DNA of 57,533 nucleotides from Actinomycetota bacterium. Lineage in GTDB: Bacteria; Actinomycetota; Actinomycetes; Nanopelagicales; Nanopelagicaceae. The stretch is from positions 1 to 57,533 of the forward strand of contig RGHD01000005.1 in the NCBI GenBank assembly GCA_010024385.1. The letters are read 5' to 3'. A program made the position numbers and the translations under genes. A model generated the notes under the pieces. The model worked only from the letters and a program-made list of their open reading frames with translations. It was not told where the DNA came from and did not search any database. Below are positions 283 through 57,533 of this stretch, in pieces; position 1 is the stretch's first letter, and every line of letters starts with the position of its first letter.

Positions 283-1259
283 GTGAGAATTTTCGTTGGG
301 GAATCTTAGGAACTGGAGGCATTGCACAGGCATTTGCTAAAGATCTGACCTTTACTAGCGGCCATGAAGTTAGCGCTGTTGGATCTCGCTCTTTAGATAA
401 AGCTTTAGATTTCAATAAAGAATATGGTGGCAACGCCTATGGCAGCTATGAAGAGCTGGTGGCAAGTGATGTAGATGCTATTTATGTTGCAACCCCGCAC
501 CCTTCCCATAAAGAAAATGTGATAGCAGCCCTTAATGCGGGTAAGCCGGTTCTATGTGAGAAACCATTTGCGGTAAATGCTGCGCAGGCAAAAGAAATGG
601 TGGCAGCGGCTAAGGCTAATAATGTGGCTTTGATGGAAGCGATGTGGGCAAGGTTTTTACCTCATTATTCAAAAATTCGCGAAATTGTCTCAAGTGGAGT
701 TTTGGGACAGATCACAGCAATTCACGCCGATCACGGGCAGCGTTTAGCCGATCAAAACATCCCACGCCTTGTTGAGCCATCACTTGCCGGAGGGGCCTTA
801 CTTGATCTTGGAATCTATCCAATCTCCTTTGCGCATATGATTTTAGGAGTTCCACAATCGATAACCGCCACCGCAGTCTTCACCGACAAAGGTGTTGATG
901 GGCAGAGCTCAATGATTTTTGATTACTCCAATGGGGCACAAGCCGTACTCAATACGACAATGATTGTGCAGACACCCTGCACGGCAGTTATTGCAGGGCT
1001 CAATGGATATTTAGAAGTTAACCGAACCTTCTATAACCCAACATCTATGTCCCTTACACTCTTTGATGGCACCACTACAGACTATCCTTCGGACTACAAA
1101 GGCCATGGATTGCGTGAACAAGCAGTTGAATTCGCCCGTGTAGTGAATAGCGGAGCCAAGGAATCTCCGATTCTTACATGGGCAGACACAATTGCGATTA
1201 TGGAGATTATGGATACTGTCCGCTCTCGCATTGGGTTGAAATACCCATTTGAGAATTAA
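279..1259 (+). CDS. Gfo/Idh/MocA-family NAD(P)-dependent oxidoreductase
   Basis: This 326-residue protein has the two-domain plan of the family. An N-terminal Rossmann fold carries the dinucleotide motif GILGTGGIA (residues 8-16) and the EKP signature (94-96) whose Lys contacts substrate and cofactor. A C-terminal alpha/beta domain carries DLGIYP (176-181) and a conserved His (186). Such enzymes oxidise or reduce sugars, inositols or dihydrodiols; the family closest to this pattern includes trans-1,2-dihydrobenzenediol or xylose dehydrogenase-like proteins, but substrate cannot be read from sequence. Length is normal. The start overlaps the upstream stop by 4 bp, and the stop overlaps the stop of the convergent ROK gene by 4 bp. 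Confidence 0.88.
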   Translation: MSENFRWGILGTGGIAQAFAKDLTFTSGHEVSAVGSRSLDKALDFNKEYGGNAYGSYEELVASDVDAIYVATPHPSHKENVIAALNAGKPVLCEKPFAVNAAQAKEMVAAAKANNVALMEAMWARFLPHYSKIREIVSSGVLGQITAIHADHGQRLADQNIPRLVEPSLAGGALLDLGIYPISFAHMILGVPQSITATAVFTDKGVDGQSSMIFDYSNGAQAVLNTTMIVQTPCTAVIAGLNGYLEVNRTFYNPTSMSLTLFDGTTTDYPSDYKGHGLREQAVEFARVVNSGAKESPILTWADTIAIMEIMDTVRSRIGLKYPFEN

Positions 1260-2170
1260 CTTCTAGCTAAATCAGCAACTCCAACAAGCCCAGCTTCATT
1301 TCCTAACTCGGCCGCAATAATCTGCGGATAAGGATGCTTGCCAGCAAATGGCATATTGCGCTCAAGTGATTCACGCGTTGGCTTTAAAAGAATCTCACCT
1401 GCATCAATTACTCCACCACCAATAACAACACAGGCAGGATCTAAGAGAACAGAGAGAGATGCAATACCGGCGCCTAACCACTGGCCAGTTGTATTAAAAG
1501 CAGCCAATGCCACGGGATCACCATCACGGGCAGCATCAGTAATAGCTTGACCTGTCAGCCCTGCAACAGTTCCATCGCCGCGCGAGAGCAGGTTGCGTGC
1601 AACTTCAGGACTGGCGTTAATTGCTTCTCGCGCATGGCGCAGTAAAGCATTTCCTGATGCATATTGCTCGAAACAACCACGAGCCCCACAGCCACAGATG
1701 TGTCCTTCTGGAACTACGCGCATGTGCCCAAACTCTGCTGCAATTCCAAAAGCGCCTCGGTAGAGAGCACCATTCACAACAATGCCTCCGCCAATTCCAG
1801 TTCCAACTGTGAGCATCATCATGTGATCTTGATTCTTGCCTGCACCAAACTTTGCTTCACCCCATGCTGCTGCATTTGCATCATTTTCAATGACAACCGG
1901 AAGTCCGATGAGTTTGGTGAGTTGATTATCTAAATCAACACCATTCCAGTCGGCAATGTTGGGAGTTGCCAACATGGTCTTTCGATCAGAGGAAACAAAA
2001 CCTGCAGCAGAAACTCCAATAGATGTGACTGAATGTTGTGTGAGTAATTCTCTTGCGACATCAGCAATTGTCTGAGTTAGCGCACTTCCACCTTGACGAG
2101 GCGTGTCTTTTCTGGCTGTAGTGAGAACTTTTCCAGCTTCATCAACAACGCTTGATGGAATAAGAACCAT
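1256..2170 (-). CDS. ROK-family glucokinase missing its N-terminus
   Basis: ROK sugar kinases phosphorylate glucose or related sugars with ATP. The C-terminal nine tenths are intact: catalytic END (residues 95-97), GTGIGGG (123-129), EFGH with a zinc-binding His (146-149) and the zinc cysteines CGCGARGC (159-166). The protein should begin about 18 residues earlier with the DxGGTK phosphate-binding loop. Instead, homology starts at VVDEAGK (about residue 8), preceded by a few residues that are an out-of-frame reading of the upstream SRPBCC gene. The listed ATG lies inside that gene. Without DxGGTK the product should be catalytically dead. A deletion of roughly 200 bp, or a misassembly, explains both broken genes. 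Confidence 0.75.
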   Translation of the reverse strand: MVLIPSSVVDEAGKVLTTARKDTPRQGGSALTQTIADVARELLTQHSVTSIGVSAAGFVSSDRKTMLATPNIADWNGVDLDNQLTKLIGLPVVIENDANAAAWGEAKFGAGKNQDHMMMLTVGTGIGGGIVVNGALYRGAFGIAAEFGHMRVVPEGHICGCGARGCFEQYASGNALLRHAREAINASPEVARNLLSRGDGTVAGLTGQAITDAARDGDPVALAAFNTTGQWLGAGIASLSVLLDPACVVIGGGVIDAGEILLKPTRESLERNMPFAGKHPYPQIIAAELGNEAGLVGVADLARS

Positions 2171-2444
2171 CCATTCCTGTTAGAAGATCTGCATCATCGA
2201 GTGAAAAAGAAAGTTGCCCCGGAGCCTGGCTCCAGTCATAATCTAAAATCACGCGATCTTTCATCATTCCTGCATCAATAGTCATTTTTACTTTGATGGC
2301 CCGGCCTTGGTCATCACGTTCAACGACCTCGCTGGACTTAATCGCACTCGACCAGGTTGGATATTGGTCAAGAGCAAAAAGGGCTCCTTGGACATCGGCT
2401 AATGGGGCTTCGATCGTTATTGTTGAACTGCTCAAATCGCTCAT
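2142..2444 (-). pseudogene. SRPBCC-family (polyketide cyclase/START-like) protein, 3' truncated
   Basis: The first 96 or so residues match the actinobacterial SRPBCC lipid/hydrophobic-ligand-binding proteins that sit next to acyl-CoA ligase and glucokinase genes: an N-terminal strand SSSTITIEAP, a YPTW helix turn, then DGSYSI. Family members are about 145 residues. Here the frame ends at 100 residues, four codons after DGSYSI, where it runs into the ROK kinase gene in another frame. The last third, including the C-terminal helix that closes the ligand cavity, is absent. The promoter end looks intact (a TAACCT hexamer 6 nt before the ATG). No function is proposed for the fragment. Confidence 0.7.
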
Positions 2445-2498: not shown

Positions 2499-4289
2499 AT
2501 GAATGAAGTCACAACTCCCGCCCTTGTCCCTTCTGCCACTGCTGGCAATCTGACAAATCTGATTGCTGAACGCGCCTGGTTTGAGCCAGAGCGCATCACC
2601 ATGTCTCGTCCACTTGGAGATGGATGGCAAAGTGTCACTGCCCGTGAAGTTGACGAGGAGGTGCGAGCAACTGCCAAAGGATTGATTGCTGCAGGAATTC
2701 AAATAGGTGATCGTGTGGCAATCATGGCTCGCACTCGTTATGAGTGGACCATTCTTGATTTTGCGATTTGGTATGCCGGAGCTGTCGTAGTTCCAATCTA
2801 TGACACATCATCTGCAGAACAGATTGATTGGATTCTTAATGACTCATCAACTGTTGGCATTATTGTTGAAACTCCAGCGCTACGTGAATTAGTTCAAACT
2901 GTTATCCCTTCACATACCAAGCATGTTTGGGTGATGACTGAGGATGTTCTTACAGTGCTTCGCAATGCTGGTGCTCACGTATCAGATGATGAAATTGAAC
3001 GTCGCCGCGCAGCACTTGGCCCAGATACTTTGGCAACGCTTATTTACACTTCAGGTACAACTGGAAAACCAAAGGGTGTTTCACTCACACATGGCAACTT
3101 CTTAGCTGAGTGCGGAAATGTTGTTCAAGGTGCAAGTGATCTATTCCTTAAGCCAGGCGGATCAACTTTACTTTTCTTGCCTGTTGCTCACGTCTTTGGC
3201 CGTATGGTTCAAATTGGTGCAATTAACTCTGGTCTACACCTTGCGCACTGCAGCGACCCACTTGGACGTCTACCAATTGATCTAGCTTCCTTTAAGCCAA
3301 CATTTGTTTTGGCAGTTCCACGTATTTTCGAAAAGATTTATAACGGAGCTGAAGCTCGCGCTGAAGCTGCAGGTAAGGGAAAGATTTTTAGAAAAGCAGC
3401 AGATGTAGCAATCGCTTACTCTGAGGCATTGGATAAAAAGAGAATCTCTCCTATCCTTAAACTCAAGCATGGCCTCTTTGACAAGTTGGTCTACTCAAAG
3501 ATTCGTGCGGGTATGGGTGGACGTGTTGAAGCTGCAATCTCTGGTGGTGCCCCGCTAGGAGTGCGTTTAGGCCACTTCTATCGTGGTGCCGGCGTAACAA
3601 TTTTAGAAGGCTACGGTTTAACTGAAACAACTGCTGGCGCAACGTTAAACTTAACTGGTGCACACCGCGTTGGTTCAGTTGGTCGTCCAATCCCAGGCAC
3701 TTCAATCAAGATTGCAGAAGATGGCGAAGTTCTTATCCGTGGCGCAATTGTTATGCGTGGGTACTGGCAAAACGATGCTGCAAACGCTGAGGTTTTCGAC
3801 TCTGAAGGTTGGTTTAAGTCAGGTGACTTAGGAAAGCTCGATGATGAAGGTTTCCTCTACATAGTCGGTCGTAAAAAAGAACTTATTGTTACTGCAGGTG
3901 GAAAGAATGTTGCCCCTGCTGTCCTAGAAGATCGCTTACGTGCTCATCCACTGGTAAGTCAGTGCTTGGTCGTTGGTGATAATCAACCATTCATTGCAGC
4001 GCTTATAACTATTGACCAGGATGCACTTAAGGGTTGGGTAGCAAATCACAAGAAGGAAGGTGCCTCAATGGCTGACCTTGCTAATGACCCTGATTTGATT
4101 GCTGTTATCCAAACCGCAGTTGATGATGCAAATAAGGCAGTGAGCAAAGCAGAATCAATCCGCAAGTTCACTATTCTTACAACAGATTTCACAATCGCTG
4201 GTGGACACTTAACTCAGAAGCTCTCTATTAAGCGACACGTAGTTGCGAAGGAATTCGCAAAGGAGATTGACCAGCTCTTCACAAAGTAA
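2499..4289 (+). CDS. Long-chain fatty-acid--CoA ligase (AMP-forming)
   Basis: This 596-residue ANL-superfamily enzyme activates fatty acids to acyl-AMP and then acyl-CoA. The P-loop YTSGTTGKPKG lies at residues 183-193, the adenylate motif GYGLTETT at 371-378, SGD at 441-443 and the hinge GRKKE at 457-461. The C-terminus ends in GGHLTQKLSIKR, typical of the FadD15-like long-chain ligases of Actinobacteria, and the length is normal. It faces away from the SRPBCC gene across a 54-bp promoter region. In other Actinobacteria this ligase also sits near SRPBCC, ROK kinase and PimB genes. It would feed the FadA/FadB pair found at 11.8-15.1 kb. The function class is sure; the chain-length preference is inferred. 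Confidence 0.93.
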   Translation: MNEVTTPALVPSATAGNLTNLIAERAWFEPERITMSRPLGDGWQSVTAREVDEEVRATAKGLIAAGIQIGDRVAIMARTRYEWTILDFAIWYAGAVVVPIYDTSSAEQIDWILNDSSTVGIIVETPALRELVQTVIPSHTKHVWVMTEDVLTVLRNAGAHVSDDEIERRRAALGPDTLATLIYTSGTTGKPKGVSLTHGNFLAECGNVVQGASDLFLKPGGSTLLFLPVAHVFGRMVQIGAINSGLHLAHCSDPLGRLPIDLASFKPTFVLAVPRIFEKIYNGAEARAEAAGKGKIFRKAADVAIAYSEALDKKRISPILKLKHGLFDKLVYSKIRAGMGGRVEAAISGGAPLGVRLGHFYRGAGVTILEGYGLTETTAGATLNLTGAHRVGSVGRPIPGTSIKIAEDGEVLIRGAIVMRGYWQNDAANAEVFDSEGWFKSGDLGKLDDEGFLYIVGRKKELIVTAGGKNVAPAVLEDRLRAHPLVSQCLVVGDNQPFIAALITIDQDALKGWVANHKKEGASMADLANDPDLIAVIQTAVDDANKAVSKAESIRKFTILTTDFTIAGGHLTQKLSIKRHVVAKEFAKEIDQLFTK

Positions 4290-4293
4290 CTAT

Positions 4294-4776
4294 GTGAGCC
4301 TTACACAGCGAATAAAACTCGCACAAGAGCTCCACGATGGCATAGCCCAAGATCTCGTGGGGTTGGGCTATGGGTTGGATTCACTATTATTTCAAGAAGT
4401 TGATGAGACTAAGCGTGCTACTTTGCGATCTGTGCGCTTTGATATCAACATATTGATAGAGAAAGTGCGTAGCGAAATTCTAGAACTTCGCACAGGGTAC
4501 AACAACCAAGAACTCCTTAGTTCTCAACCAGAATTTACTTATGAACTTAATAGAGTTTTTAGTGAAATCATCAATAATGTGACTGAGCATTCGCATGCGA
4601 CTCGCCTAGATGTAATTTTCACTGATAATGGAATTGGTGGGGCTTCAGAGGTGGAGAATCATTATGGAATGCTAGGAATCTCTGAGCGAATTATGGCTTT
4701 GGGTGGTCATGTAGATATCCACTCTGATTTCACCGGTACTAATGTTGCAATTTCATTGGACCTACTGAATCCATGA
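4294..4776 (+). CDS. Short cytosolic histidine kinase (HisKA_3/HATPase_c), N-terminus and internal segments missing
   Basis: A NarL/LiaS-type sensor kinase reduced to its core. With the GTG at 4294 as start, the phospho-acceptor His is residue 14 in QELHDGIAQDL. The ATPase N-box (EIINNVTEHS) and the G1 region (DNGIGG) followed by GMLGISER are present. No sensor or membrane segment exists. The stretch between the H-box helices and the N-box is about 20 residues shorter than usual, and only two residues separate RLDV from the TDNGIGG motif where 12-15 are expected, so a beta-strand of the ATP-binding fold appears lost. No clear ribosome-binding site precedes any start; TTG at 4243 or 4267, inside the ligase gene, are alternatives. 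Its stop overlaps the regulator's ATG. Confidence 0.65.
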   Translation: MSLTQRIKLAQELHDGIAQDLVGLGYGLDSLLFQEVDETKRATLRSVRFDINILIEKVRSEILELRTGYNNQELLSSQPEFTYELNRVFSEIINNVTEHSHATRLDVIFTDNGIGGASEVENHYGMLGISERIMALGGHVDIHSDFTGTNVAISLDLLNP

Positions 4777-15099: not shown

Positions 15100-16960
15100 G
15101 AGTGCTGCTCCATTCAACAACGCTGCGTGAAATGTTTTGAGCTGTAATACCGATATCGCTCAAAATCTCACTTCGCTTTGAGTGCTCAATAAACTCAAGT
15201 GGAACGCCTATGGAATGAAGAGGGATTAATACTCCTGCATCTCTAAACATTTCAGAGATGGCACTTCCTATACCTGCATGTCTAATGCCATCTTCTAGAA
15301 CAACAACACTCTTATAGCGCTCTGCCATCCGAACTAGTGATTCTGGCAATGGCTTTACCCAACGTGGATCAATGACCGTTACACCCACACCTTCACGATA
15401 TGCAGAAGATGCAGCTTCAACTGCAATTGCTGCCATAGCTCCAACGCTAATCATCAAGACATCAGCACTCTCACCGCGATAGAGAACATCTATTCCATCG
15501 CGGCGCTCGAATGCGGGAATATCCTCTTGCACTGCACCCTTTGGAAAGCGCACCATAGAAGGAGCATCGTTAATTGAAACAGCTTCACGCAAAAGCTCTT
15601 TAAGACGTGCACCATCTCTAGGTGCTGCCACATGCATTGTTGGAACAATTCCAGTTAAAGCTAAGTCCCAAATGCCGTGGTGTGATGGTCCATCATCACC
15701 TGTCACACCGGAGCGATCTAGAACAAATGTGACTCCAGCCTTGTGCAGAGCAACATCCAAGAGTAATTGATCAAAAGCGCGATTAAGAAAGGTTGAATAC
15801 ACGGCAACAACTGGATGAAGTCCAGTGAAAGCTAAACCAGCTGCGCTAGTTACTGCATGTTGTTCTGCAATTCCCACATCTATTGTGCGTTCAGGATAAG
15901 CGGCTTGAAATTGATCTAGGCCAGTTGGTCCAAGCATCGCAGCAGTGATTGCCACAATATCTGTGCGGGTCTTACCAATCTCAACTAACTCTTGTGCAAA
16001 AACTTTCGTCCACGATGTTCCACTCTTAGCCAATGGCTCCCCTGATTCAGGATCAATAACGCCTACTGCATGGAACTTCTCAGCTTCATCGGCAACTGCT
16101 GGCTTATGGCCCTTACCCTTTTCAGTAATAACATGAACCAAAATTGGCGCACCATACTCTTTGGCTTGTTGCAGCGCTCTTTCGATTGCAGAAATATCGT
16201 GACCATCAATTGGTCCTAGATACTTAAGCCCTAAATCCTCAAACATGCCTTGCGGGGCAACAATATCTTTAATTCCCTTTTTCATTCCATGTAAAGTCTC
16301 ATAAATAGGCATTCCAACAACTGGAGTCTTATGCAGAACTTCTTTTCCCCAATCCAGGAACTTCTCATATCCACTAGTAACGCGCAGAGTTGAAAGATAG
16401 GTAGCTACTCCACCAATTGTTGGTGAATAAGAACGCTCATTGTCATTAACGACTATAACTAGGTTTCTCTTTTTTTCTGGAGCAATGTTGTTTAATGCCT
16501 CCCACGACATTCCACCAGTTAGTGCGCCATCTCCGACCACGACGACTACATGTCGGTCCTTGGCTCCTTGTAATGAGAAACCTCTAGAAATCCCATCGCC
16601 CCATGAAAGCGCCGTTGATGCATGTGAATTCTCGATAACATCGTGTTCACTTTCCCTGCGATTTGGATATCCAGAGATGCCACCACGTTGGCGCAAAGTA
16701 TCAAAAGCTCCACCACGGCCCGTTAGCATCTTGTGAACGTAGGACTGATGTCCGGTATCAAAGACAATGACATCTTTTGGTGATTCAAATACTCTGTGAA
16801 TTGCAACTGTAAGTTCGACCACACCTAAGTTTGGACCTAAGTGACCACCTGTCTTTGAAACTTTTTCGATGAGCAACCCACGAATCTCTGCACTGAGTTC
16901 AATGAGATCATCGTAAGAGAGAGCAGCCAAATCGGCTGGGGAGTTAATCTGGCTCAACAT
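15041..16960 (-). CDS. dxs: 1-deoxy-D-xylulose-5-phosphate synthase
   Basis: This 639-residue thiamine-diphosphate enzyme catalyses the first step of the MEP isoprenoid pathway, condensing pyruvate and glyceraldehyde 3-phosphate. Motifs: GHLGPNLG (39-46), the TPP/Mg motif GDGALTGGMSWEALNN (143-158), NDNERSYSPTIGG (172-184), the catalytic Glu366 in GIAEQHA and DRSGVTGDDG in the pyrimidine domain. The C-terminal transketolase domain is complete, then a roughly 20-residue polar tail (ending HRKQPR) reads through the end of fadB on the opposite strand. The ATG is supported by TAAACT 7 nt upstream. The gene stands alone between fadB and acnA. Confidence 0.95.
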   Translation of the reverse strand: MLSQINSPADLAALSYDDLIELSAEIRGLLIEKVSKTGGHLGPNLGVVELTVAIHRVFESPKDVIVFDTGHQSYVHKMLTGRGGAFDTLRQRGGISGYPNRRESEHDVIENSHASTALSWGDGISRGFSLQGAKDRHVVVVVGDGALTGGMSWEALNNIAPEKKRNLVIVVNDNERSYSPTIGGVATYLSTLRVTSGYEKFLDWGKEVLHKTPVVGMPIYETLHGMKKGIKDIVAPQGMFEDLGLKYLGPIDGHDISAIERALQQAKEYGAPILVHVITEKGKGHKPAVADEAEKFHAVGVIDPESGEPLAKSGTSWTKVFAQELVEIGKTRTDIVAITAAMLGPTGLDQFQAAYPERTIDVGIAEQHAVTSAAGLAFTGLHPVVAVYSTFLNRAFDQLLLDVALHKAGVTFVLDRSGVTGDDGPSHHGIWDLALTGIVPTMHVAAPRDGARLKELLREAVSINDAPSMVRFPKGAVQEDIPAFERRDGIDVLYRGESADVLMISVGAMAAIAVEAASSAYREGVGVTVIDPRWVKPLPESLVRMAERYKSVVVLEDGIRHAGIGSAISEMFRDAGVLIPLHSIGVPLEFIEHSKRSEILSDIGITAQNISRSVVEWSSTLKEEMQLPSDENAHRKQPR

Positions 16961-16967
16961 GGGCTTA

Positions 16968-16973
16968 AGTTTA
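16968..16973 (-). promoter_or_regulatory. -10 hexamer TAAACT for dxs
   Basis: Minus-strand TAAACT ends 7 nt before the dxs ATG at 16960; no Shine-Dalgarno sequence. It lies in the 18-bp gap after the acnA stop, so dxs has its own promoter. Confidence 0.45.
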
Positions 16974-16978
16974 GATGC

Positions 16979-19627
16979 TTATGAGTTTAAGAGCGAGCGA
17001 AGAACGTACTGCATGATTCCACCGTGGCGGTAGTAATCGGCTTCTCCTGGAGTATCTATGCGCACAGTTGCAGCAAAGGTCTTGCTTCCAGCACTCACTG
17101 TCAGCTCCTTTGGAACTTTCCCAGTATTGAATGCTGTGATGCCGAGGATTGAGAATTCTTCCTCACCTGTCAGGCCAAGAGACTGAGCACTATCGCCATT
17201 CTTAAATTGAAGAGGTAGGACCCCCATTCCAATTAAGTTGGAACGATGAATGCGTTCAAAGCTTTCGGCAATTACTGCTCGCACTCCAAGTAATGCAGTT
17301 CCCTTAGCAGCCCAGTCACGTGAAGAGCCAGAGCCGTATTCTTTACCTGCCAAGATAACTAGGGGTGTTCCAGCGTTTTGGTAGGCAACAGATGCATCAT
17401 AAATCGTTGATTGTTTTCCGTCGGTTGCAAAGTTGCGAGTAAAACCACCCTCAACGCCATCTAGTAATAAATTCTTCAGACGAATATTGGCAAAAGTTCC
17501 ACGAATCATTACTTCATGATTTCCTCGGCGTGAGCCATAAGAGTTGAAATCTTTACGATCAATTCCATGCTCAGCTAAGTACTTACCTGCTGGTGAATCA
17601 GCTTTGATGTTTCCTGCAGGTGAAATGTGATCAGTTGTTACTGAATCCCCAAGAATTGCCAAGACGCGCGCTCCAGAGATATCTACAACCGGAGCAGGAG
17701 TTTTTGGCATTCCATCAAAGTACGGAGGCTTTCTCACATAGGTAGATTTAGGATCCCACTCAAAAACTTTCCCAACTGGAGTGGCCAATGACTTCCAGCG
17801 GTGATCTCCTTCAAAGACTGAAGCATAATCTTTTGTAAACATGGTAGATGAAATTGAGGAGTCAATAACTGATTGAATTTCAGCTGGTGTTGGCCAAATA
17901 TCGGCTAGGTATACATCTTTACCATTTTGATCTTGCCCCAGAGAGTCTTTCTCAAAGTCATGATCCATAGTTCCAGCGATTGCATAAGCCACAACCAATG
18001 GTGGTGAAGCTAAATAGTTCATCTTCACATCAGGACTAATGCGGCCCTCAAAATTTCGGTTACCAGACAGGACTGCTGTGACTGCTAAATCTGAGTCATT
18101 GACGGCCTTGCTAATTTCAATAGGCAGCGGACCCGAGTTACCAATACAGGTTACGCAACCGTAGCCAACTAAGTGGAAACCTAACGCTTGCATGTATTTA
18201 GTTAAATCAGCACGGTCATAGTAATCAGTTACAACCTTTGAGCCTGGAGCAAGAGTTGTTTTGACCCAAGGCTTTGATTTCAAACCTTTTTCAACTGCCT
18301 TTTTTGCTAGAAGTGCCGCACCAATCATTACTGATGGATTTGATGTGTTGGTGCACGATGTAATGGATGCAATAACTACATCTCCATTTTTCACACGTGT
18401 AGACCCTGCTTTTACTTCTTCTTTAGATGTTTTGTCTGAAAAGTAACTAGGCAAAATTTTTTCAAATGCTAACTTTGAATCACTCAAAGAGATGCGATCT
18501 TGTGGACGTTTAGGTCCAGCAATAGATGGAACCACGGTAGAGAGATCTAACTCAATTTGTTCAGAAAAACGTGGCTCAACAGATGGGTCATGCCAAAGGC
18601 CTTGCTTCTTTGCATACTGCTCAACTAATGCAACTTGATCATCACTTCGCCCAGTTAGGCGCAAGTAACGCAAAGCTTCTTCATCGATAGGGAAAATTGC
18701 ACATGTTGAACCGTACTCAGGACTCATATTTCCAATAGTTGTGCGATTAGCCATAGGGACTGAAACCACACCTGGGCCATAGAACTCGACAAACTTTCCA
18801 ACTACTCCGTGCTTGCGCAAGATTTCAGTGATGGTCAGGGCCATATCTGTTGCGGTAGTTCCAAGAGGTAGTTGACCGGTTAACTTAAATCCCACAACAC
18901 GTGGGATAAGCATTGAAACTGGCTGACCAAGTAGCGCTGCTTCTGCCTCAATTCCACCAACACCCCACCCAAGAACTCCTAAGCCGTTAACCATCGTTGT
19001 GTGTGAATCTGTTCCAACCACGGTGTCTGGATAAGCACGTAACACGCCGCCAACTGTGCGAGTCATGACTACGCGAGCTAGGTACTCAATATTTACTTGG
19101 TGGACAATTCCAGTTCCTGGCGGTACTACCTTGAACTCATCAAAGGCAGTTTGGCCCCAGCGTAAAAAGCGATAACGCTCTTGGTTGCGCTCATATTCAA
19201 TATCAGTATTTTGCTCAAAAGAATCTTTTGTTCCAAAAACATCTGCAATCACTGAGTGATCAATTACTAACTCTGCTGGGGCAAGAGGGTTAACTTTCGA
19301 TGGATCTCCACCCAAATCCACGATTGCCTCACGCATTGTTGCAAGATCCACAATGCAGGGCACGCCCGTAAAGTCCTGCATGACTACGCGTGCAGGAGTG
19401 AACTGAATTTCAGTATCTGGTTCTGCTGCTGGATTCCAATTAGCTAGCGCCTTGATGTGATCGGCTGTGATGTTAGCGCCATCTTCTGTGCGAAGAAGAT
19501 TCTCTAAAAGTACTTTTAGTGAGAATGGAAGGCTAGTAGCGCCCTCTATGCCGGAGATATCGAAAATCTCGTAACTCTTGCCCGCAACTTCTAGATTCTT
19601 CTTTGCGTTGAAAGAGTTCTTACTCAT
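16979..19627 (-). CDS. acnA: Aconitate hydratase A
   Basis: This 882-residue aconitase interconverts citrate and isocitrate in the TCA cycle. The [4Fe-4S] cluster ligands are Cys425 ([11 protein letters not shown]) and Cys491/Cys494 ([11 protein letters not shown]). [14 protein letters not shown] and the C-terminal swivel domain ([27 protein letters not shown]) are present, giving the AcnA/IRP1 type. The frame is open further upstream, but ATG at 19627 is preferred: it follows AGGGGAG, starts with [14 protein letters not shown] as in homologues, and leaves a 34-bp gap to the methyltransferase stop instead of an overlap. In eukaryotes and some bacteria such proteins moonlight in RNA binding; nothing here speaks to that. 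Confidence 0.95.
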
Positions 19628-39830: not shown

Positions 39831-42104
39831 CTACTTGAGCAGTTGCAATAAACGCGAAGCTACTTCGTTAGCCCGCTCATCGCTTAGCGGGCCCCCCGTA
39901 AGTTCGGTCACATATAAAGTATCAATTGCTTCAGCGCCCAGGGTTGTAACAATGGCCGATCTGATATCGACTTTGGATTGTGTGATTCCAGCACCTATTC
40001 TAAAGAGTAGGCCTGGCCTATCGTGGCTTCGCACTTCAATAATAGTTGCCTCCGTTGCGCCATCATTGTAAAACTCAACAATTGGATCTGGCACTGGAAT
40101 CGAAGGAATAGATGCATAAGCCTGCGCTCGTGCAATTAACTTGTCATGAATATGGGATGAATCATTGAATGCCTTTTCAATTTCACTGCGTAGGTTTTGC
40201 GCTGTTACTGCTGGTGCATATGGCTCTGGTGTGACAATCCATTTCATAACTGCTGAAGAACCATGAGTCTTTGTTCTTGCAGATCGAACATTTAAGCGAG
40301 AGGTATTAATTACACCAGCAACTAAAGAGAGTAGACCGGGCTTATCTGGCGAAATAATTTCAATCGAATACCCATTCTCACGTTGTTCTAGACTAACTTG
40401 TAGGACTCCACTTTCAGCCACTTCGAGTTGTTCGGGGGTTATCTCAGGTTGGGCAGCAATGGTACTCGACCCAGACATTGCTTTCTTAACACGTCTTACT
40501 AAATCAGAGACTAACGCTGCTTTCCAATCACTCCAGCCAGCACTGCCAGTTGCCTCACCATCGGCGATACTGAGTGCGTGTAATAGCTCTAACGTCGTTA
40601 AATCTGGAATTACAGCAAGTATCGATTGAATTGTCGCAGGATCATCTAAATCGCGCCGTGTGGCTGTTGCAGACAACAGTAGATGGTGTTTAACAAGAAT
40701 CTTTATAACTTCAATATCTTCTTCAGGAAAACCAATGCGCTTTGCCAGTGGTCCAATTAAACGCTCTCCCCTGATCGAGTGATCTTCCGTCTCGCCTTTA
40801 CCAATGTCATGGAATAGGGCTGCAAAGAGAAGTAGGTCTGGGCGGTGAACTTTACGTGTCAATGAAGCGGCATGAACGGCAGTTTCGACCATGTGTCTAT
40901 CAACTGTGTGGCGATGCAGTGCATTTCGCTGAGGCAAAGAGCGCAGTGCTCTCCATTCTGGAATCCAGTGAAAAATAATCTCTTCTTGATCAAGTGCTTC
41001 AAAGATAGGGACCATAGATTCACCTGCTCCGATAAGTGAAATCAAATGTTCACGCGCCTCTCTTGGCCAAGGATTTGGAAGTAACCCTTTTCCTTCATTT
41101 AGAGCAGTTGATAAAAGTGAATATGACTCTAGAGAGATAGGAAGACCTAACTGTGCTGCCGTTGCTGCTGCGCGAAGACCTAACATCGGATCGTTATGCA
41201 AATCAGTCAGTGGATTGATCACAACTTCTCTTTGAGAAACATTCAGATTCTTTGCAACCACCTCTGTACGGGGCTTGCGAAGAAAACGTCCAAAACCATC
41301 TTTAGCTCTCTGCTCAAGTTGGTGCCACGTGAATTCGAGTAGATAGTCAACAGATCTAGCTGCTCGTGCCACATCACTCATGAGCGCGTCAGCATCGATG
41401 TATCCAAGTTCTCGGGCCACGGCATCTTGTTCCTGAAAAAGTAATCTGTCTTTATTTCGCCCACTCGTTTGATGCAAAGTTTCGCGAACATCATTGAGCT
41501 TTGATTCAGCCCAACTAATGCGCTCAAGTGGAACACTGGTTGCACCCGATAAAGAGATTGCTCGTAGCGCATTAATATCTCGAAGTCCTCCGCGGGCTTC
41601 TTTTACATCAGGTTCAAGTAGATAAGCCAGCTCTCCTGCCCGCTCATGTCTGAGCTCTAAAGATTGCTTGAGCTCTGGCAATCGACTGCGAGCCTGTTTT
41701 CTCCAGGAATCTAAACTCTCACTTTGAATGCAGGCAACTAAATCTGCATCTCCTGCGACACGACGGATATCTAATAGTCCAAGTGCAACTTTTAAATCTG
41801 ATTCGGCAGCATCACGTGTCTCTGTGCGTGTGCGAACCGAGTGATCAACGCTCTTGTTCTCCCAAAGAGGATACAGAAGCTCATTTACAAACTCACTCAA
41901 AGCACTCTGTGAAAATTGGCCTTGATGCAAAATAACTATGTCTAAATCAGAGCCAGGAGATAGTTCTCCTCGACCATAACCACCCACGGCAGCTATTGCT
42001 AAACCTTTAGCGCTCTTTCCAGTTTTTCCTAAAGCTTCATTAAAAAGCGAGAGAAGGAAGCGATCGCTCTGGTTTGATCGCTCCCTTCGCTCACGTGTAC
42101 TCAT
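39831..42104 (-). CDS. glnD: PII uridylyltransferase/uridylyl-removing enzyme GlnD
   Basis: This 757-residue nitrogen sensor has a nucleotidyltransferase domain (GGYGRGELSPGSDLDIVIL, about 42-60, with the catalytic Asp pair SDLD), an HD phosphohydrolase domain (HRHTVDRHMVET and LFHDIGKG), and two C-terminal ACT domains (around residues 580-650 and 690-755) that read glutamine. It modifies and demodifies the T-loop of GlnB. In Actinobacteria GlnD can adenylylate rather than uridylylate; the sequence does not decide. A TAAGAT hexamer (whose TAA is the glnB stop) ends 6 nt before its ATG, so it may also have its own leaderless promoter. Confidence 0.94.
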   Translation of the reverse strand: MSTRERRERSNQSDRFLLSLFNEALGKTGKSAKGLAIAAVGGYGRGELSPGSDLDIVILHQGQFSQSALSEFVNELLYPLWENKSVDHSVRTRTETRDAAESDLKVALGLLDIRRVAGDADLVACIQSESLDSWRKQARSRLPELKQSLELRHERAGELAYLLEPDVKEARGGLRDINALRAISLSGATSVPLERISWAESKLNDVRETLHQTSGRNKDRLLFQEQDAVARELGYIDADALMSDVARAARSVDYLLEFTWHQLEQRAKDGFGRFLRKPRTEVVAKNLNVSQREVVINPLTDLHNDPMLGLRAAATAAQLGLPISLESYSLLSTALNEGKGLLPNPWPREAREHLISLIGAGESMVPIFEALDQEEIIFHWIPEWRALRSLPQRNALHRHTVDRHMVETAVHAASLTRKVHRPDLLLFAALFHDIGKGETEDHSIRGERLIGPLAKRIGFPEEDIEVIKILVKHHLLLSATATRRDLDDPATIQSILAVIPDLTTLELLHALSIADGEATGSAGWSDWKAALVSDLVRRVKKAMSGSSTIAAQPEITPEQLEVAESGVLQVSLEQRENGYSIEIISPDKPGLLSLVAGVINTSRLNVRSARTKTHGSSAVMKWIVTPEPYAPAVTAQNLRSEIEKAFNDSSHIHDKLIARAQAYASIPSIPVPDPIVEFYNDGATEATIIEVRSHDRPGLLFRIGAGITQSKVDIRSAIVTTLGAEAIDTLYVTELTGGPLSDERANEVASRLLQLLK

Positions 42105-53956: not shown

Positions 53957-54724
53957 TTAACTGAAATGGCGCCAGGTTTCTGGCGCTTTTTTCATTTCTA
54001 AACCAAGTACCCCACTACCTTCTTTAACCACTCCCACACACAAGCCAGGCAGATCTTTTCCCGTGGCCAAGAAAACATGGTCTTCTCCACCAGCAAAAAT
54101 CCATTGCCAAACATCTCTGCCACTAACTTCTGCTAGTTCTGATAACTGTGAAAACTCTTCACTTGCCTTAAAAGCCTCGGGATCAAAAACTAATTGAACG
54201 TCAGATGCATATGCTAACTGCGCAGCTTGTGTAACTAGCGCATCACTGATGTCACACATTGCATGGGCGCCTTTATTTGCAAAGGCAACTGCCAACGAAT
54301 AATCAAGAGTTGGAGAACAGAACTCTTCTACAGCATAGTTTTCTAAATCACTTAACTCACTTTTCTCAATAAAGGAAAGCCCAGCGCCAGACCATCCTGG
54401 TAATGATGATAAATAGATTAAATCTCCCACTTGTGCACCAGATCGAGTAACTACCTTTTCTACTTCACCGAGTGCGCTCATTGAGATTACCTTTATTGCC
54501 CCGCGTGCAAGGTTTGCAGCCGTTATCTTTCGACCGATCTGAAAAGCACCTGACCACTGGCAATCAAAGTGCGTTCCCTCTACTGCCATGTCAGTTGTAA
54601 TAACGGTGTGCTCACCTGTGGCAACAACTGCAGCGTCATCGCCAATTCCAACCTGAACGCCTCGGTGGTTGGTGCCAAAGATCTCGGCGAGTGCACCGAT
54701 AATCTGGGCTTCATTCAAGGTCAT
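53957..54724 (-). CDS. thiL: Thiamine-monophosphate kinase lacking an internal segment
   Basis: ThiL phosphorylates TMP to thiamine diphosphate, the cofactor of Dxs. The N-terminal GIGDDAAVV (about 26-34) and TDMAVEGTHF, the later TRSGAQVGDLIYL, CDISDAL and GGEDH motifs are present. Residue 73 of NLA is joined directly to RGAIKVISMSALGEV, where family members have about 50 more residues, including the DLAAMGA strand and the GGDTT metal/ATP motif. The protein is 255 residues against about 310-330 usual. The frame is kept, so this could be a real in-frame deletion or an assembly error; as drawn, activity is doubtful. The last codons also encode the rpmB terminator on the other strand. Confidence 0.8.
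   Translation of the reverse strand: MTLNEAQIIGALAEIFGTNHRGVQVGIGDDAAVVATGEHTVITTDMAVEGTHFDCQWSGAFQIGRKITAANLARGAIKVISMSALGEVEKVVTRSGAQVGDLIYLSSLPGWSGAGLSFIEKSELSDLENYAVEEFCSPTLDYSLAVAFANKGAHAMCDISDALVTQAAQLAYASDVQLVFDPEAFKASEEFSQLSELAEVSGRDVWQWIFAGGEDHVFLATGKDLPGLCVGVVKEGSGVLGLEMKKAPETWRHFS
53969..53992 (+). terminator. Intrinsic terminator of rpmB inside the 3' end of thiL
   Basis: GCGCCAG (53969-53975), loop GTTT, CTGGCGC (53980-53986) and six T's. It is placed just after rpmB and overlaps the codons of the last residues of ThiL (AxExWRH), so one sequence serves both. Confidence 0.85.
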
Positions 54725-55049: not shown

Positions 55050-56612
55050 ATGAGCACGCTTTATACAAACGCGCGCTTTTGGTCTGCTGGCAAAGAAATC
55101 TTTCACGACTTATTAGTTAAAGATTCGTTCATTCTTGCCGTAGGTGAAGATGTTAAGAATTTCGAGCCAGAAATAATAATTGATTTAGATGATGCTTTTA
55201 TTATTCCTGCATTTCTAGATGGCCATGCACATCCTATTTTTGCAGGACGTGAAGCTGCTGGCCCAAAAATTAATGGCATCAACAGTATTGAAGAGATTAA
55301 AGTACAAGTGAAAGCTTTCGCAGATGCAAACCCTTCCATAGCGTGGATTATTGGCGGTGCTTATGAGGCCGCCATTGTTGAAGGCGGAGACTTTGATGCA
55401 AAGTGGCTGGATGAAGTAGTTAGTGATCGCCCAGTTGTTTTACATGCAGTTGACCATCACACCATCTGGGTTAACTCCAAAGCACTTGAATTAGCAGCAA
55501 TCACTAGTGCCACTAAAGATCCCCAAGGTGGAACTATCGCGCGCAATAGCGATGGAAGTGCAAAAGGAACCTTGCGAGAGCCATCAGCCATGGCCTTAGT
55601 TCTAGATCACGCACCTGCAAACACATTGGAAAGTGATATTGCTGCAATCAAGTATGCCTGCAAGGAATACAGAAAAGTCGGCGTGATCGCTGCTATTGAT
55701 TCTTGGTGTGAGAAAGATATGGCGCAGGCATATATCACTGCTGCGCAATCTAATGAGTTAACAATTGCTTTCAATCTCTCATTACTTGCAACTCCCACCA
55801 CTTGGTCTGGGGATATTGATGATTTCAATAAAATTCGCGAGCGATGTCTAGAACTAGATAATCCATCACAACTACAAGCTAATAGCATCAAGTTTTTACT
55901 TGATGGTGCCTTATCTGCTGGAACTGCGAATTTAATGCAGCCATATGTGGATGATCCAACTTCGCATGGAATTACTATCTGGAGCGATGAAGAACTACTC
56001 AATGCTCTTGTTGCATACGATGCGTTGCAATACCAAGTTCATTTACATGCCATTGGAGATGCCGCAGTCAAGCAGGCTTTAGATGCACTAGAAGCAATGC
56101 AAAGGATTAATCCCCGATGGGATAGACGCCCAGTCATTGTGCACGCCCAGTTGATTCGTGATGAAGATCTACCCCGCTTTGCTCAACTTGGAGTTATCGC
56201 AAACATCCAACCGCTCTGGTGTTACTTAGATCCCATGAATAAAGAACTGATTGCACCGCGAATTGGCAATGAGCGAAACAACCAGCAGTACCGTCTTCGC
56301 TCAATGGTAGATGCTGGTGCCATGATTTCATTTGGTAGTGATTGGCCTGTTACAAGTCATGTGCCAATGCAGGCTATTGGTGTGCCAGTTACTCGTTCAA
56401 ATCCAGCCGATGGAGTTACCAAGCCCTGGGTGATTGGCGAAGCCCTCACAATGGATGAATCGCTTACCTTCTATACAAAAAACGCTGCCTATCAACTCTT
56501 TCGTGAAAATGAATATGGTGTTTTAGAAGTTGGTAAAAGGGCTGCGTTCATAATTTTGGACTCAGATCCTGCTCTAAATCCCGCAGCAAAGATTGTTGAA
56601 TTAGTTTCCTAA
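55050..56612 (+). CDS. YtcJ-like amidohydrolase (metal-dependent hydrolase, amidohydrolase family 3)
   Basis: This 520-residue TIM-barrel hydrolase has the metal motif DGHAHP (about 59-64), HAIGDAAVKQALD (central His), IVHAQLI and FGSDWPV (the catalytic Asp), typical of the YtcJ/LAF family. Members cleave amide, N-acyl or imine bonds of varied, mostly unknown, substrates. No signal peptide is visible, so it is cytosolic. Its position between the Lrp domain and ddl is unusual; related Actinobacteria generally have a DUF3515 gene there. It ends 12 bp inside the 3' end of the convergent ddl gene. Confidence 0.87.
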   Translation: MSTLYTNARFWSAGKEIFHDLLVKDSFILAVGEDVKNFEPEIIIDLDDAFIIPAFLDGHAHPIFAGREAAGPKINGINSIEEIKVQVKAFADANPSIAWIIGGAYEAAIVEGGDFDAKWLDEVVSDRPVVLHAVDHHTIWVNSKALELAAITSATKDPQGGTIARNSDGSAKGTLREPSAMALVLDHAPANTLESDIAAIKYACKEYRKVGVIAAIDSWCEKDMAQAYITAAQSNELTIAFNLSLLATPTTWSGDIDDFNKIRERCLELDNPSQLQANSIKFLLDGALSAGTANLMQPYVDDPTSHGITIWSDEELLNALVAYDALQYQVHLHAIGDAAVKQALDALEAMQRINPRWDRRPVIVHAQLIRDEDLPRFAQLGVIANIQPLWCYLDPMNKELIAPRIGNERNNQQYRLRSMVDAGAMISFGSDWPVTSHVPMQAIGVPVTRSNPADGVTKPWVIGEALTMDESLTFYTKNAAYQLFRENEYGVLEVGKRAAFIILDSDPALNPAAKIVELVS

Positions 56613-57533
56613 AACTCCGTTTGTGCGAAGCAAAGCAGTTTCAATCAAAGCTGTAATCAGGCTCGTGTAATCAACCCCACTTGCAGCCCACAGCTTTGGA
56701 TACATAGATGTTCCTGTAAAGCCTGGCATTGTGTTTATCTCATTTATGAAGATTTCGCCCTTATCGGTATAGAAGAAATCACATCTTGCTAATCCGCTAC
56801 AGCCCAAAGCTTTAAATGCCTGAACTGCCATTTCACGAATTTCTTCAGTGGCTTTTGCTGGAATATCAGCGGGAATTTTCACAGTCGTTGCGCCATCTAA
56901 GTACTTGGCTTCAAAGTCATAAAACTCAAACTTGCTATCAATAACAATTTCACCAACTACTGATGCCTTTACCACACCATTAGATTCAAGTACTGCGCAC
57001 TCAATCTCACGGCCCACTACTGCCTGCTCAATCATTACCTTGTGGTCATATAAAAAGGCATCTTTGAGGGCATTGTTTAGTGCATCCACGGATTTCACTT
57101 TGTGAGTACCGCGACTTGAGCCTCCGCGAGCAGGTTTAACAAAGACTGGGTATGCCAAATCATCAATTGAAACTTGCTTGTCTTTGCTTGTTATCACAAT
57201 TCCATCAGCAACCTTCATGCCAGCTGCAGCAAAAATTGGCTTGGTAAAAGACTTATCCATCGCAACTGCTGATGCTAAAACTCCGCTGCCAACATAGGCC
57301 AAGTTTGCGATTTCAAGTAGGCCTTGAATCGTTCCATCTTCACCATAAGGTCCATGCAATACAGGAAAGACAACATCAATCTGTAACGCTTTGCCCGCAA
57401 CAGAAAAACCATGAATATCAGCCACAACTGCCGGCGCATTTTCATCAACTGTTGGAAGCTTTCCACTAACTATTTCTAGCGGATAGTCATTGGGTAATAA
57501 AACCCAGTTGCCAGCCTTGGTGATTCCAATCGG
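56601..57533 (-). CDS. ddl: D-alanine--D-alanine ligase, C-terminal part (5' end outside window)
   Basis: About 310 residues are visible; the frame stays open to the window edge, so the first 50 or so are missing. Seen are PVLHGPYGEDGTIQGLLE, the Lys/Ser loop MDKSFTK, VKPARGGSSRGTHKV, GREIECAVLE and the metal-binding EINTMPGFTGTSMYP (as EINTMPGFTG) near the end. This ATP-grasp enzyme makes the D-Ala-D-Ala dipeptide of peptidoglycan. The GTG at 57425 is not the true start because the upstream codons continue the ligase sequence (PIGITKAGNWVL). The Phe in MPGFT differs from some families but is common in ddl. Confidence 0.93.
   Translation of the reverse strand, partial: PIGITKAGNWVLLPNDYPLEIVSGKLPTVDENAPAVVADIHGFSVAGKALQIDVVFPVLHGPYGEDGTIQGLLEIANLAYVGSGVLASAVAMDKSFTKPIFAAAGMKVADGIVITSKDKQVSIDDLAYPVFVKPARGGSSRGTHKVKSVDALNNALKDAFLYDHKVMIEQAVVGREIECAVLESNGVVKASVVGEIVIDSKFEFYDFEAKYLDGATTVKIPADIPAKATEEIREMAVQAFKALGCSGLARCDFFYTDKGEIFINEINTMPGFTGTSMYPKLWAASGVDYTSLITALIETALLRTNGVLGN

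Follow-up and report, generated by a model that had tools for sequence, protein, structure and literature searches.

On the minus strand of the window, by which we mean the whole 57,533-nucleotide stretch of DNA that was analysed, an SRPBCC gene is followed downstream by a ROK glucokinase gene, and both are broken at one position. The features of the window discussed here, relative to a one-contig genome (G015) and a draft genome (G004), are as follows.

1256-2151, minus strand: ROK glucokinase remnant lacking the first 17 codons; its open reading frame spans 1256-2170, and the start at 2170 is a product of the join
2151: join, where 203 bp (relative to G004) or 204 bp (relative to G015) are absent
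2151-2444, minus strand: SRPBCC remnant without its last third; its frame ends at 2142, beyond the join
4243-4776: short histidine kinase, 177 aa, of the same length in the nearest relatives
53957-54724, minus strand: thiL, with a join at 54506-54508 where 153 bp are absent relative to G015, in frame

A preliminary description of this DNA had the SRPBCC protein cut after DGSYSI with its last third gone, and the remnant (ORF 2142-2444, minus strand; 100 aa, versus 145 aa in G015) is indeed genuine up to DGSYSIK and off-family after that motif. The ROK remnant (ORF 1256-2170, minus strand, 304 aa) is genuine from VVDEAGK onward; the seven residues at its N-terminus come from SRPBCC sequence translated in a different frame. 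In the intact pair of G015, the SRPBCC protein has 145 aa and the ROK protein 314 aa, with 10 bp between the genes and a ROK N-terminus reading MSLTIGIDVGGTKVLGG. We estimate the loss relative to G015 at about 47 residues for SRPBCC and about 17 for ROK, in keeping with the roughly 18 N-terminal residues, DxGGTK loop included, first proposed for the kinase. The D-x-G-G-T loop of ROK-family glucokinases, an N-terminal element that binds phosphate, was not found in the ROK remnant. Against TIGR00744 the ROK remnant scores 271.7 bits, above the curated cut-off of 260.35, and its Pfam match begins at profile position 14; the SRPBCC remnant reaches 23.6 bits against PF10604 (Polyketide_cyc2), below the gathering cut-off of 27.4, over profile positions 5-65 of 142.

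Alignments to G015 and to G004 stop and resume exactly at 2151. The two breaks, although in different frames, therefore meet at a single point as originally described, and one deletion of about 200 bp (204 bp by G015, 203 bp by G004) accounts for both. Identity to G004 is even on either side of the join (94.9% left, 94.6% right), and a fusion of two strains at this point was rejected on that basis.

Comparison of the locus with related genomes, as had been proposed, separates the window from its relatives. A contig scan gave 104 relative loci, of which the best 80 were used, with titles including Candidatus Planktophila and Nanopelagicaceae, among others. Among these best 80 of 104, the SRPBCC gene is present in 71 and encodes 144-145 aa every time, and the kinase loop reads D-x-G-G-T in 77 and D-x-G-G-S in 2, with the remaining one cut by a contig start. 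Both flanks of the join are present in 61 of the same 80, at a spacing of 190-259 bp and never 0, so that the fused arrangement at 2151 occurs in none of the 61 comparable loci. Several records (L068, L093, L094, L100, L080, L079 and L086) are titled Bifidobacterium breve, Streptomyces griseus or Streptomycetaceae, yet carry an acI-type locus with a ROK identity of 82-90%; these look like misnamed bins.

In the analysed draft (G000; 99 contigs, scored 99.61% complete), matches to the region are confined to the two flanks, with no copy of the missing segment of about 200 bp on other contigs; the remnant is the sole ROK match in the genome, and the PF02685 glucokinase family has no match in it. 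An alternative glucokinase elsewhere was rejected for want of either match, and the draft, taken at face value, describes a strain without glucokinase.

The preliminary description also held thiL and the histidine kinase to be shortened alike, which was correct for thiL only. Relatives match the thiL of the window as two pieces with an intervening gap, and the 153 bp lost relative to G015 correspond to 51 codons following ...KITAANLA. The histidine kinase was rejected as a third join: it is not broken in this way, since its length is the same in the nearest relatives, and it aligns without a gap to G015 and without a gap to G004. It was matched in 62 of the best 80 of 104 relative loci, 16 of them gapless and including those of highest identity; gaps are present in more distant relatives.

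Elsewhere in the window, a 757-aa ORF at 39831-42104, glnD-like by sight, is missing at the equivalent place in G015, where G008 carries no additional sequence relative to G015 either. At 15106-16983, G004 is short of 1.88 kb with a sharp join; almost all of a gene that by sight resembles dxs is missing, and the loss is either real or another draft artefact. The ORF at 56601-57425, a D-alanine--D-alanine ligase by sight, has a GTG start about 100 bases from the contig end and may be cut by it.

A total of 722 kb of the draft, drawn from 30 contigs or contig parts and including the window, was set against the 1.16 Mb of G015, and 652 kb of it aligned; six of the 30 sampled contigs (C10, C20, C50, C62, C70 and C80) gave no alignment. 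A join was called where the alignments had an identity of 70% or more and a length of 100 bp or more, no more than 15 query bases were unaligned, and 30-800 bp were missing. Nineteen sharp joins were obtained, at which the draft is short of 74-432 bp (median 183), spread over 13 of the 30 contigs; two of them, SRPBCC-ROK and thiL, lie in the window. In the reverse direction the same 652 kb yielded one sharp join of 30-800 bp, and by our own arithmetic the probability of at most one of 20 under equal rates both ways is about 2 in 100,000. At the sampled rate, the genome would hold about 39 such joins. Three kinds of site were not counted among the 19: those where the unaligned sequence on both sides is longer (examples are C13, 41/941 and 74/914, and C24, 43/762), those where the gap is internal to an alignment (in G000 five, of 12-37 bp; in G015 three, of 12-18 bp), and a sharp loss in C28 that, at about 4.4 kb, exceeds the size limit. 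Insertions of whole-gene size (1.0-1.9 kb) in the draft relative to G015 are also present, and are ordinary. The sampled draft sequence contains no Ns except in C70 (L145) and C80 (L146), both of which read wholly as N. The common artefact suspected in the preliminary description thus gains thiL and 17 further joins in the sample, and loses the histidine kinase.

Hit genes were named with NCBIfam on the G015 ORFs unless stated as by sight. The joins cut leuS, dapA, murA, purB, carB, lipA, glgB and thiL; further joins fall in ftsK, in menF, and in genes for a polyprenyl synthetase and an ABC transporter ATPase, all four named by sight alone, and some of the 19 lie outside any named core gene. 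In purB, carB and thiL the missing length is a multiple of three, and the murA join removes the first 33 bp including the start codon. Two of the genes hit, leuS and dapA, are needed for life; without leucyl-tRNA synthetase, a cell is not expected to live. At the leuS join (L131, contig C5, 14533-14536) the draft is 172 bp short relative to G015, with a frameshift; a few initial codons are kept with the remainder in another frame, and the only match in the genome above 32% identity starts at residue 59 of 827. At the dapA join (L139, contig C32, 2931) 316 bp are absent relative to G015, again with a frameshift, leaving pieces 1-92 and 196-296 in different frames and no further match in the genome. 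In another example, the C8 join cuts a tRNA-Val(gac) found in G015, where ARAGORN instead calls a tRNA-Leu that spans the join. The defect thus recurs across the genome in unrelated core genes, as expected of an artefact, and the frameshifts in the sole leuS and dapA are not what a living cell would be expected to carry.

As a control, G008 was compared with G015, a more diverged pair (86.5% identity); over 353 kb, three sharp losses within the 30-800 bp range were seen in G008 (267, 701 and 724 bp) and one, of 678 bp, in G015 relative to G008. The 267-bp loss begins at a gene end and the 724-bp loss removes one whole small gene. The 701-bp loss overlaps the site of the draft's C3 join; because G008 lacks sequence there too, that join may be natural. 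The G004 control, of 32 kb, contained a single loss, of 1880 bp. Compared by counts alone with the G008 and G004 controls, the draft has a moderate excess of joins (P 0.015, or 0.0012 with a size limit chosen after seeing the data), and the argument for an artefact is carried by the 19-to-1 imbalance and the identity of the genes hit rather than by the control counts.

The ends of the joins bear few marks. Exact homology is absent in 15 of the 19 and amounts to 1-3 bp in the other four, and the missing length is divisible by three in eight. For 17 of the 19, the longest word shared near the ends is matched or exceeded by at least 23% of random placements; the exceptions are 2151, with a 7-bp word within 20 bp of the ends (reached by 9.5% of random placements), and C8, with an 8-bp word (3%). 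Slippage at direct repeats was rejected, the shared word being at chance level outside these two. Segments that are hard to assemble were likewise rejected as an explanation, the G+C of the missing parts (0.461) being close to that of the flanks (0.464). Identity to G008 was measurable for nine of the 19 missing segments, and as four of these nine are at least 5 points below their flanks (one on 11 bp only), strain variation may contribute.

Four readings of the break at 2151 can be weighed against these results. We consider it very probably an assembly artefact that mimics the loss of glucokinase, the SRPBCC-ROK pair being most likely whole in the living organism. A real deletion, by which the strain or population lost glucokinase together with the SRPBCC protein, would fit the sharp join with its even identity to G004, the 7-bp word common to the vicinity of both ends, and a genome devoid of any other ROK or PF02685 match, as expected of a true loss. 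It is nonetheless very unlikely, for like joins break the sole leuS and dapA and also sit in murA, purB, carB and lipA, and the segment is present in all 61 comparable loci among the best 80 of 104. Of the two possibilities raised in the preliminary description, a lost glucokinase or a skipped segment, the latter is thus strongly favoured. Deletion-bearing DNA molecules that predate assembly, be they amplification chimeras or a rare variant, and that the assembler then followed, would likewise yield sharp joins in any class of gene and leave no Ns, as in the 19. Such molecules usually arise at short repeats, whereas 17 of the 19 joins have no shared word beyond chance, and we regard this origin as unlikely; amplification from a single cell is compatible with, though disfavoured by, the 99.61% completeness. 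Lastly, a natural population with frequent mid-sized deletions in single-copy core genes, leuS and dapA included, that survives through mixed or complementing genome copies is hardly credible.

Under an assembly artefact, two true stretches would have been joined over an unassembled gap of about 200 bp that no Ns mark. We postulate that read pairs served to order the contigs, which were then joined with the gap dropped, although another local assembly error would look identical; all of the missing lengths could fit within a read-pair insert. The joins are most likely artefacts because a cell with these breaks, in leuS, dapA and other genes, is not expected to live, though some of the 19 may not be.

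The loss of glucokinase is therefore almost certainly not a real feature. A draft that scores as 99.61% complete would, at the sampled rate, still contain about 39 silent joins, and the gene losses it suggests, those of glucokinase and thiamine-phosphate kinase among them, are accordingly not credible without the reads. A simple test for any draft is to compare it with a close complete genome and look for numerous sharp, one-sided losses of 70-430 bp.

Errors of a related kind have been described. In the parts of the source drawn on here, Chen et al. 2020 (PMC7111523) state that uncurated gaps and local errors occur in genomes from metagenomes, and that when curation is skipped, public databases propagate protein-coding genes that are incomplete or incorrect; the portion of PMC6509639 consulted mentions error fixing only. 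That part of PMC7111523 treats N-filled gaps and, besides these, consensus unsupported by reads, whereas the gaps of the draft carry no Ns. The incomplete or incorrect protein-coding genes are a shared feature of such metagenome-assembled genomes, as far as that part describes them, and of the draft, which may or may not be a metagenome bin. With the intact SRPBCC-ROK pair of acI-type actinobacteria, such as G015 and G004, the window shares the two genes, their order and their orientation, and its ROK is 97% identical to that of each; it differs from the intact pair in the 203-204 bp spanning both gene ends.
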